Source: Cyanobacteria bacterium SIG29
Lineage (GTDB): Bacteria > Cyanobacteriota > Vampirovibrionia > Gastranaerophilales > Gastranaerophilaceae
Assembly (NCBI GenBank): GCA_015152515.1
Contig: SUTV01000008.1
Span: 1 to 46,892 of the forward strand
DNA: 46,892 bases
Direction of reading: 5' to 3'
In this document: piece by piece, positions 36,021 to 37,753 of the stretch
Position numbering within the stretch: the first letter of the stretch is position 1
How the letters are laid out: the number at the start of each line of letters is the position of its first letter
Program-made: the position numbers and the translations under genes
The notes under the pieces: generated by a model
Seen by the model: only the letters and a program-made list of their open reading frames with translations
Database searches by the model: none
What the model was told of the DNA's origin: nothing

Positions 36021-37706
36021 ATGGGATTACCAAACGTAGCATATTTTTCAATGGAAATAGCAATTGATCAATCTATCGCAACATATTCAGGTGGTTTAGG
36101 TTTCTTAGCAGGCTCACACATGTTATCTGCTGGATATTTACAAATGCCTATGGTTGGTGTGACAATGTTATGGTCTTATGGTTATTATAATCAAAGAATT
36201 GGTGAAGATGGTAACGTTGAAGTTGCTTATATTAGAAAACATTGTGATTTCTTAACAGATATCAATGAAACAGTAACTGTTGATGTTTATGGTGAAAAAG
36301 TAGTAGTAAAAGCTTTTAGATTAGAACCAGGAATTTTTGATACATGTCCTGTTTACTACTTAACAACGGATATTGAAGAAAACTCAGAATGGGCGAGATC
36401 AATATCACACAAATTGTATGATGGAAATGAAAAAATCAGAATTGCTCAAGAAACAGTTCTTGGTATTGCGGGTATTAGATTACTTCAAAAAGTTGGATAT
36501 AAATTTGATTGTGTTCACTTAAATGAAGGTCATGCTCTTCCTGCAGCATTTGAATTATTAAATCAATATAATGGTGATTTAGCAAAAGTTAGAGAAACAG
36601 TTGTATTTACAACTCACACACCAGTTTCTGCTGGTAACGAAGTTCACTGGGTAGACAATTTATTACAAGGTGGATTCTTCGCTGGTCGTTCTAGAGAAGA
36701 AGCTGTTCAATTAGGTGGTGAACAATTCTCATTAACAGTTGCTGCTTTAAGAATGTCTAGATTGGCTAACGCTGTATCTCAATTGCACGGTTTAGTTTCT
36801 AACAAAATGTGGAGTTGGGTAGAAGGTAGATGTCCAATCAGAGCTATTACTAATGCTGTAAATCTTCATTACTGGCAAGATGAAAGAATGAAGACTAACA
36901 ATTTAGAAGCTTTATTAGAAGCTAAAAAAGAAATGAAAAAAGAAGTATTTGAATATATTGCAAATACTGTTGGTAAAAAGTTTGATCCAAATGTGTTAAC
37001 AATTACTTGGGCAAGAAGATTTGCTGATTACAAACGTGCTTGGTTAATCTTCATGGATGAAAACAGAATTCTTAAATTATTAAACGAAAACAAAGTTCAA
37101 TTAATTTTTGCTGGTAAGTTCCATCCAGATGATGTAATTGGTAAAGAAATGTTCAACAAAATCTTAAGAAGTTCATATTCAATGAAGAACGTAGTTGTTT
37201 TAACTGGTTATGAATTAGATTTAAGTGGTAAATTGAAACGTGCTTCTGATATTTGGTTAAATACTCCATTAAGACCATTTGAAGCTTCTGGTACTTCAGG
37301 TATGTCAGCTAATGCTAACGGTGCTCTTCACTTATCAACATTTGATGGTTGGACAGTAGAAGGTACATTCCCAGGAATCAATGGTTATACTATTGAATAT
37401 GAAGGCTTAGATGATAATATTCCTTGGGAAGAAAGACATAGAAAAGACTATGAATGTATGATGGATATTATTGAAAATCAAATTATTCCAACATATTATG
37501 ATAACAAAGTTCAATGGGCTACAATGATGAGGCAAGCTATCAGAACTGCTGATGCTTATTTCAACTCAGACAGAATGGTTGTAGAATACTATAACAGATT
37601 GTATAAACCAATAGCTCATGGTGCTGATGAAGGTGGCATTTCTGGTGCTGACTATCATGAAGCAACAACTCCAAAAGATGCTTGGACTTTCTCAAACATC
37701 AAATAG
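36021..37706 (+). CDS. GT35 alpha-glucan phosphorylase-like protein lacking the PLP lysine
   Basis: 561 residues, the compact GT35 type. It aligns along its length with alpha-glucan phosphorylases: VAYFSMEIAIDQSIATYSGG, LNEGHALPAAFELL, FTTHTPVSAGNEVHW, WARRFADYKRAWLIF (keeping the Arg and Lys of the phosphate site) and DIWLNTPLRPFEASGTSGM. At residue 429 the lysine that holds pyridoxal phosphate in this family (GTSGMK) is Ser (codon TCA at 37305-37307). A normal phosphorolysis mechanism is therefore doubtful. Possible roles are a glucan-binding protein, a regulator, or a transferase with changed chemistry. Codon use (many AAC, GGT, CTT) suggests high expression. An inverted repeat covers its promoter and a strong terminator follows. 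Confidence 0.85.
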   Translation: MGLPNVAYFSMEIAIDQSIATYSGGLGFLAGSHMLSAGYLQMPMVGVTMLWSYGYYNQRIGEDGNVEVAYIRKHCDFLTDINETVTVDVYGEKVVVKAFRLEPGIFDTCPVYYLTTDIEENSEWARSISHKLYDGNEKIRIAQETVLGIAGIRLLQKVGYKFDCVHLNEGHALPAAFELLNQYNGDLAKVRETVVFTTHTPVSAGNEVHWVDNLLQGGFFAGRSREEAVQLGGEQFSLTVAALRMSRLANAVSQLHGLVSNKMWSWVEGRCPIRAITNAVNLHYWQDERMKTNNLEALLEAKKEMKKEVFEYIANTVGKKFDPNVLTITWARRFADYKRAWLIFMDENRILKLLNENKVQLIFAGKFHPDDVIGKEMFNKILRSSYSMKNVVVLTGYELDLSGKLKRASDIWLNTPLRPFEASGTSGMSANANGALHLSTFDGWTVEGTFPGINGYTIEYEGLDDNIPWEERHRKDYECMMDIIENQIIPTYYDNKVQWATMMRQAIRTADAYFNSDRMVVEYYNRLYKPIAHGADEGGISGADYHEATTPKDAWTFSNIK

Positions 37707-37724: not shown

Positions 37725-37753
37725 AAAAAGGGGCTTTTAAAAAGTCCCTTTTT
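37725..37753 (+). terminator. Hairpin terminator of the GT35 gene
   Basis: AAAAAGGGGCTTTT pairs with AAAGTCCCTTTTT (one G-T pair), followed by more T and ending 16 bases before the next gene. Confidence 0.85.

Follow-up and report, generated by a model that had tools for sequence, protein, structure and literature searches.

A short-form alpha-glucan phosphorylase lineage with serine or threonine in place of the PLP lysine, and a probably rebuilt cofactor site

Introduction

Can an alpha-glucan phosphorylase work after losing the lysine that binds its cofactor? The question is raised by a gene of Cyanobacteria bacterium SIG29, a member of the non-photosynthetic Vampirovibrionia/Melainabacteria lineage, found in the window, by which we mean the whole 46,892-nucleotide stretch of DNA analyzed here. 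The link between a lysine residue and pyridoxal phosphate (PLP) is regarded as a hallmark of glycogen phosphorylases, and the protein encoded by this gene carries Ser at the corresponding position. GT35 proteins without the PLP lysine are not described among the literature matches listed (titles and abstract starts), and a prior description elsewhere is possible. Our comparison of the gene with its relatives suggests that the Ser/Thr lineage, which spans gut and environmental bacteria, probably possesses an enzyme that works with a rebuilt cofactor site.

Results and discussion

Family assignment and position of Ser429

The gene lies at positions 36021-37706 on the plus strand and encodes a short-form protein of 561 aa. 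In profile searches, the protein scored 457.8 bits against NCBIfam TIGR02094 (alpha-glucan family phosphorylase; curated cut-off of 191.7) and 77.4 bits against GT35/PF00343 (gathering cut-off of 27). The scores were below the cut-offs for TIGR02093 (glycogen/starch phosphorylase; 62.3 against 552.9 bits), NF041129 (maltodextrin phosphorylase, Thermococcales equivalog; 362.4 against 1500 bits), and NF001903 (GlgA glycogen synthase, GT5; 18.2 against 616 bits). No domain beyond the GT35 match was detected in a Pfam search of the protein. The nearest solved structures by sequence, searched by phmmer against PDB chains, were 20yr and 9l6i, both of which are alpha-glucan family phosphorylases. Judged by these profiles, the gene is a GT35 phosphorylase relative of a known subfamily, in a variant form without the Schiff-base lysine.

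The segment aligned with the PLP-lysine motif is EASGTSGMSANANG (residues 421-434; 37281-37322, plus strand). Within this segment, Ser429 (codon TCA; 37305-37307, plus strand) was placed opposite the lysine of GEKA in 20yr and 9l6i, where the window protein reads GMSA. The hhalign comparison between the Ser-type profile and canonical GlgP likewise set GMSA against NMKF, with Ser on the PLP lysine. Hence, the protein bears Ser429 where a PLP-dependent alpha-glucan phosphorylase (EC 2.4.1.1) has its Schiff-base lysine. A sequence-only reading of this DNA had claimed the replacement of the PLP lysine by Ser, and both the PDB-chain and profile alignments bear it out; its position for the Ser codon was exact, while the segment that it gave as 37290-37325 was slightly shifted from the true span.

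Conservation of Ser429 and of the gene

In a search by motif that left this residue free, all of the 57 orthologues read had Ser at this position (39 from the genus, another 5 from the family, a further 8 from the order, and 5 from the class, with approximately 50-95% identity). Ser429 is thus fixed among the relatives read, which was one of the points that the sequence-only reading had put forward for checking. Homologues were present in 91 of the 98 relatives searched; the seven without a homologue match include two members of the same genus (G010 and G012), and a TIGR02094 match was also absent in four further genomes of the same family (G309, G370, G492, and G511). The dN/dS values between the window gene and two same-genus orthologues were 0.074 and 0.043, and those for two more distant orthologues with dS >1 were 0.143 and 0.132; these values rest on four computable pairs, as a fifth pair (L033) gave no dS. 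The gene is under purifying selection, and this range of dN/dS (0.04-0.14), together with the invariant Ser, agrees with its earlier description as a conserved protein.

A sequencing or assembly error, or a mutation in a single strain, is ruled out by the Ser found in every one of the 57 genomes read, which belong to many genera. With linked changes fixed at residues 330, 406, and 437 alongside Ser, and with Thr at the same position in Bacteroidota (see below), we regard the chance of such an artifact as negligible.

Lys was present in all seven of the more remote TIGR02094 homologues from this class (L051-L057, with open frames of 668-1260 aa) and in the three canonical GlgP loci read (L059, L061, and L062). 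Three class-level families (f8, f10, and f13) possess lysine-type homologues in place of the Ser type, and no homologue of either type was found in family f12. One genome of the same family as the window (G375) encodes a lysine-type phosphorylase of 852 aa and gave no Ser-type match. In the 12 kb read of the 22-kb contig concerned, no other ORF matched the Ser-type loci of its congeners, and in all four congeners of G375 read, a contig ends no more than approximately 300 bases from the Ser-type gene. The case of G375 may thus reflect a natural replacement of the Ser type, a gap in the assembly, or a contig of foreign origin.

Loci with the Ser-type gene this close (~300 bases) to a contig end include L168-L171 and those on contigs of some other relatives, for instance G050:C1, G057:C12, and G043:C146. 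These contig ends suggest that a repeat adjoins the gene; a search of six loci for an RNA repeat gave no Rfam match.

The gene had also been described as apparently highly expressed, with a regulated promoter, a strong terminator, and codon use unlike that of its neighbors. The proportion of C-ending codons in five two-codon families was 0.34, the highest among the 26 plus-strand genes compared (the next being 0.24), but minus-strand genes also reach 0.34, so that the claim on codon use has moderate support. A terminator-like hairpin followed by a T run was found at 37725-37753 on the plus strand, but 0.8 such sites are expected by chance. The regulated promoter finds no support, as promoter-like sites were no more numerous than in shuffled sequences (9 observed against 12.0 expected).

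Residues retained and changed around the cofactor site

The phosphate-site segment RRFADYKR, containing Arg332, Arg333, and Lys338, is present at 37014-37037 on the plus strand. Ten positions, namely 199, 278, 285, 332, 333, 338, 397, 421, 424, and 425, were invariant in the 14 Ser types aligned. We take these positions to be the equivalents of His377, Asn484, Trp491, Lys568 (as Arg), Arg569, Lys574, Tyr648, Glu672, Gly675, and Thr676 of glycogen phosphorylase. All ten, including Glu421, Gly424, and Thr425, were unchanged in a set of 62 Ser-type proteins; this set was picked by a motif requiring Glu421, Ala422, Ser423, Gly424, Thr425, Ser426, Gly427, and Ser429, so that the 62/62 counts are informative for the positions outside the motif and not for those within it. 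The retention of the phosphate-site residues, as claimed earlier, therefore extends across the Ser types. The retained phosphate site in turn suggests an active phosphorylase that would hold PLP without a lysine at position 429.

The same counts bear on whether the protein could be a catalytically dead glucan-binding or sensor protein of phosphorylase descent. The residue regarded as defining is indeed lost, and the short form is devoid of the N-terminal region of the long TIGR02094 proteins. Against this, the residues at the catalytic positions (Glu, His, Arg, Lys, and Asn) are the same in 14 of 14 and 62 of 62 proteins, purifying selection acts across the whole gene, no further Pfam domain accompanies the GT35 match, and 92 of the 98 relatives lack a canonical GlgP over the cut-off. 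We thus consider a dead protein improbable. The glucan sensor put forward by the sequence-only reading stays a hypothesis, and the kept catalytic positions argue against a pure sensor.

The loss of the lysine is accompanied by the gain of another one. Lys406 (codon AAA; 37236-37238, plus strand) was found in every Ser-type (62 of 62) and Thr-type (2 of 2) protein read, in contrast to none of 48 lysine-type proteins, that is, 0 of 18 alignment rows, with canonical as well as very divergent archaeal proteins among them, and 0 of 30 loci of the cyanobacterial phylum. We take rabbit Tyr648 to be the counterpart of Tyr397 and Ala653 to be a neighbor of PLP, and we assume the rabbit sequence, numbering, and PLP contacts accordingly. 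The alignment puts Lys406 on the helix after Tyr397, at the equivalent of rabbit Ile657 and one helical turn past the equivalent of Ala653. Lys655, two residues from Ile657, is placed in a shallow groove 15 Å from the active site in a passage of PMC11465516. Lys406, being new relative to the lysine types, may be a candidate replacement lysine to reach the PLP aldehyde. The sequence-only reading, which had considered the binding of PLP by another lysine, did not mention Lys406.

Other changes are linked less exclusively. Trp330 (37008-37010, plus strand) is common to the Ser, Thr, and Cys types read, with Phe at this position in most lysine types. Asp287 and Trp330 are common to the Ser and Thr types but not exclusive to them, as a divergent lysine-type archaeal protein (L123) possesses both. 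His209 and His437 (37329-37331, plus strand) are fixed only in the Ser types; residue 437 is Leu in both Thr types and Asn, Gln, Ser, or others in the lysine types.

The new invariant lysine that accompanies the loss, together with the further fixed changes such as Trp330 and His437, can also be read as the trace of a phosphorylase that has given up PLP, in which Lys406 with Arg332, Lys338, and the Ser/Thr hydroxyl would supply the charge and proton shuttling of the PLP phosphate. PLP-independent retaining GT-B trehalose phosphorylases provide a precedent for PLP-free phosphorolysis, and the malQ neighborhood described below fits a phosphorylase. The residues binding the PLP phosphate in glycogen phosphorylase are nevertheless all kept, and a cofactor-free site would not need such strictness. 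We therefore regard a PLP-free phosphorylase as rather unlikely.

Thr types in Bacteroidota

Two proteins encoded on Bacteroidota plasmids, WP_114070759.1 of Runella rosea and WP_025603925.1 of Pontibacter actiniarum, bear Thr at the position of Ser429. They share 44% and 43% identity with the window protein, respectively, and the Thr types scored 404.9 and 405.5 bits against TIGR02094 (cut-off of 191.7). The Ser and Thr types grouped together in one clade (100/99). The Thr types may lie inside or beside the Ser types, as a clade of the Ser types alone was not rejected by the AU test (p = 0.0755). Both plasmid proteins are annotated as glgP, meaning that the automatic annotation takes in proteins without the PLP lysine.

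In R. rosea, a Pyridox_ox_2 (PF12900) protein is encoded directly downstream of the Thr-type gene on the same strand (L173:7627-8067), which may reflect a link to vitamin B6 or chance. Short-form alpha-glucan phosphorylases, both lysine and Thr types, were found on the four plasmids looked at (L173-L176), with genes such as those for DUF1622, GAPDH, MerR, or metal efflux nearby. The plasmid short forms are perhaps part of a mobile stress or energy module.

Cys and Arg types in DPANN archaea

A non-lysine motif pattern was scanned over the contigs of 84,980 species genomes and matched at least five loci, one on a class-level contig named Candidatus Caenarcaniphilales (L083) and four in DPANN archaea with Cys. 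Five is a lower bound because the pattern required DGWW and a WSN codon (Ser, Thr, Cys, Arg, or Trp), and the Thr types (DGWV) and almost every Ser type escaped it. In the archaeal phylum of the Cys loci, matches were found in 20 of the 156 genomes searched. Of the 19 read for the residue (all but G196), three had Cys, four Arg (GTSWMRA), nine Lys, and three Met (very distant). One Cys-type protein scored 383.1 bits against TIGR02094, again with the cut-off of 191.7. The Arg-type group (L113-L116) carries one more Arg within the phosphate-site motif, reads DGG rather than DGW, and is without the Tyr equivalent to Tyr397; this divergent group is perhaps a different enzyme. No glucan-related genes were found among the archaeal neighbors scanned.

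In the trees, for which 10 of the 62 Ser-type rows were used, the Ser, Cys, and Arg rows formed one clade each. The partial or very divergent sequences L124, L125, L059, and L057 were left out of the tree of Ser, Cys, and Arg types, and the tree with the Thr types left out these four as well as L121, L122, L123, and L062. A single origin of the Ser and Cys types, both of which possess Trp330, was rejected by the AU test (p = 0.0109), and so was a clade uniting the Ser, Thr, and Cys types (p = 0.0198). If the lysine is assumed to be ancestral, these trees point to at least three separate losses that were subsequently kept, one in the Ser/Thr types of a Vampirovibrionia-type lineage and Bacteroidota, and two in the Cys and Arg types of DPANN archaea. 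Since the Cys and Arg types are without both lysines, Lys406 is no general requirement for losing the first one.

Alpha-glucan pathway and gene neighborhood

The sequence-only reading had also asked whether a second, lysine-bearing GlgP exists in the genome; the genome of SIG29, which is 82.5% complete, yielded no second GT35 gene. A glgA-type glycogen synthase gene (TIGR02095, 517.2 bits) is present in the window at 530-1972 on the minus strand. Among the 98 relatives, GlgA exceeded its cut-off in 74, GlgC in 69, GH77 (MalQ) in 91, and GH13 GlgB (TIGR01515) in 7, whereas canonical P_ylase exceeded its cut-off in six. As glgA, glgC, and GH77 are common and canonical P_ylase is rare, the alpha-glucan pathway present usually has, beside MalQ, no phosphorylase candidate other than the Ser type, as far as the gene content indicates. 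The Ser type need not simply replace canonical GlgP, as at least two genomes (G046 and G094, both among these six) carry both. The canonical gene of G046 (G046:C5, L099) lies beside aminotransferase-V and 3-phosphoglycerate-dehydrogenase-type genes, and the lysine-type gene of G094 is at G094:C42 (L078). A 399-aa piece of canonical GlgP was also seen on a 4.7-kb contig (G001:C123, L061) of a genome that has the Ser type.

In family f9, malQ is the gene immediately before the Ser-type gene, on the same strand, in both genomes read (G082 and G092). A debranching-type GH13 gene is located approximately 6.6 kb upstream of the Ser-type gene in G082, and in G092, malQ is itself directly preceded by a GT5-like gene. 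The linkage to malQ was seen in this family only, and no alpha-glucan enzymes were found among the Ser-type neighbors scanned outside f9. In G070, a GT4-type glycosyltransferase gene is near the Ser-type gene.

Several large or repeated frames were observed in the lineage. An 862-aa protein with weak similarity to GlgA is encoded at L132:663-3248 (G000:C6), and many same-genus relatives have frames of ~820-1030 aa with a similarly weak GlgA match. Orthology between the GT5-like neighbor in f9 and the large GlgA-like protein of the SIG29 genome was rejected, as blastp gave no match at 1e-5. Two to five GH77 (MalQ family) matches were found in many genomes, some of which are maybe pieces of one gene, and some sit in frames of >1000 aa.

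The PLP lysine, eight residues after the catalytic Glu, falls on the position of the second Glu of the EX7E motif of GT4 enzymes. This favors another reading, namely that the Ser type is an NDP-glucose-dependent alpha-glucan synthase, in which a nucleotide would again occupy the pocket without PLP and glucans would be extended. The Ser type was found without GlgA or GlgC over the cut-off in f7 (G064, G069, and G072), f9 (G082 and G092), and f14 (G087 and G097), and the searched genomes of f9 and f14 have GH13 GlgB over the cut-off. The reading is also favored by an idea put forward in section 6.3 of the review PMC11046441, that PLP could have entered an NDP-sugar-dependent proto-GT35, replacing a nucleoside monophosphate. 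On the other hand, most relatives already possess GlgA and GlgC over the cut-offs, the GlgA model scored far under its cut-off on the window protein, and the RR...YKR phosphate site is unchanged. We thus consider an NDP-glucose-dependent synthase unlikely. The presence of GlgA in 74 and GlgC in 69 of the 98 relatives also speaks against the Ser type as the missing glycogen synthase, a reading that fits best in f7, f9, and f14.

Proposed function of the Ser/Thr lineage

We propose, with a probability of about one half, that the Ser type is an active short-form maltodextrin/glycogen phosphorylase with a rebuilt cofactor site, in which PLP would be bound non-covalently or via Lys406. The rebuilding would have occurred in the ancestor of the Ser/Thr clade, with the Schiff-base lysine giving way to a conserved hydroxyl residue and Lys406 becoming fixed. 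PLP would still be in the pocket with its phosphate performing proton transfer as in glycogen phosphorylase, and the cofactor would be held either non-covalently, by those contacts to its phosphate and ring that have been retained, or through an imine formed with Lys406. The glucose 1-phosphate produced would feed glycolysis, with MalQ (GH77) as a partner. According to a passage of PMC9081730, glycogen phosphorylase uses the PLP phosphate for proton transfer, and section 4.3.3 of PMC11046441 likewise assigns its chemistry to the PLP phosphate. As the chemistry runs through this phosphate, it may well be unaffected when the Schiff-base lysine is lost, and the new chemistry put forward by the sequence-only reading stays a hypothesis.

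If PLP is still used, the anchor of the cofactor has been moved or dropped in this lineage. More tentatively, the clade with Ser/Thr and Lys406 may have abandoned PLP altogether, comprising either PLP-free phosphorylases or nucleotide-sugar-dependent glucosyltransferases. The clade would then be a living test case for the idea, found in the literature, that a nucleotide was replaced by PLP in an ancestral GT35 enzyme, and the Cys and Arg forms of the DPANN archaea would add two more departures of independent origin.

Comparison with known enzymes

Like the window lineage, the Cys types (L100-L102) and Arg types (L113-L116) of the DPANN archaea are short forms in which the Schiff-base lysine is replaced. 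Unlike the Ser/Thr types, from which they form separate clades, both are without Lys406, and the Arg types also lose Tyr397.

GlgA (GT5) is a GT-B relative with a weaker profile match to the Ser type (hhalign probability of 95.8%), and its motif reads EPCGL instead of EASGT. Canonical GlgP/MalP (TIGR02093, EC 2.4.1.1) is a GT35 relative of the window lineage (hhalign probability of 99.1% over 504 columns), with 21-24% identity to the window protein in the two partial canonical proteins compared. The four canonical proteins aligned are 835-868 aa long, compared with 561 aa in the window protein, and PLP is covalently bound to Lys in the canonical enzymes, whereas the window protein has Ser at that position.

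The closest known systems are the lysine-type phosphorylases of TIGR02094, represented by 20yr, 9l6i, and the plasmid short forms of Stanieria (L175) and Simkania (L176), the last of which scored above the TIGR02094 cut-off. They belong to the same sequence subfamily as the window protein and have the catalytic residues and the E-A-S-G-T-S-G motif frame in common with the window lineage, and the long members possess an N-terminal region that is absent from the window short form. In the lysine types, residue 429 is Lys, residue 406 is Val, Thr, Ile, Phe, or Tyr, and residue 330 is mostly Phe, whereas the window lineage combines Ser or Thr at 429 with Lys406 and Trp330.
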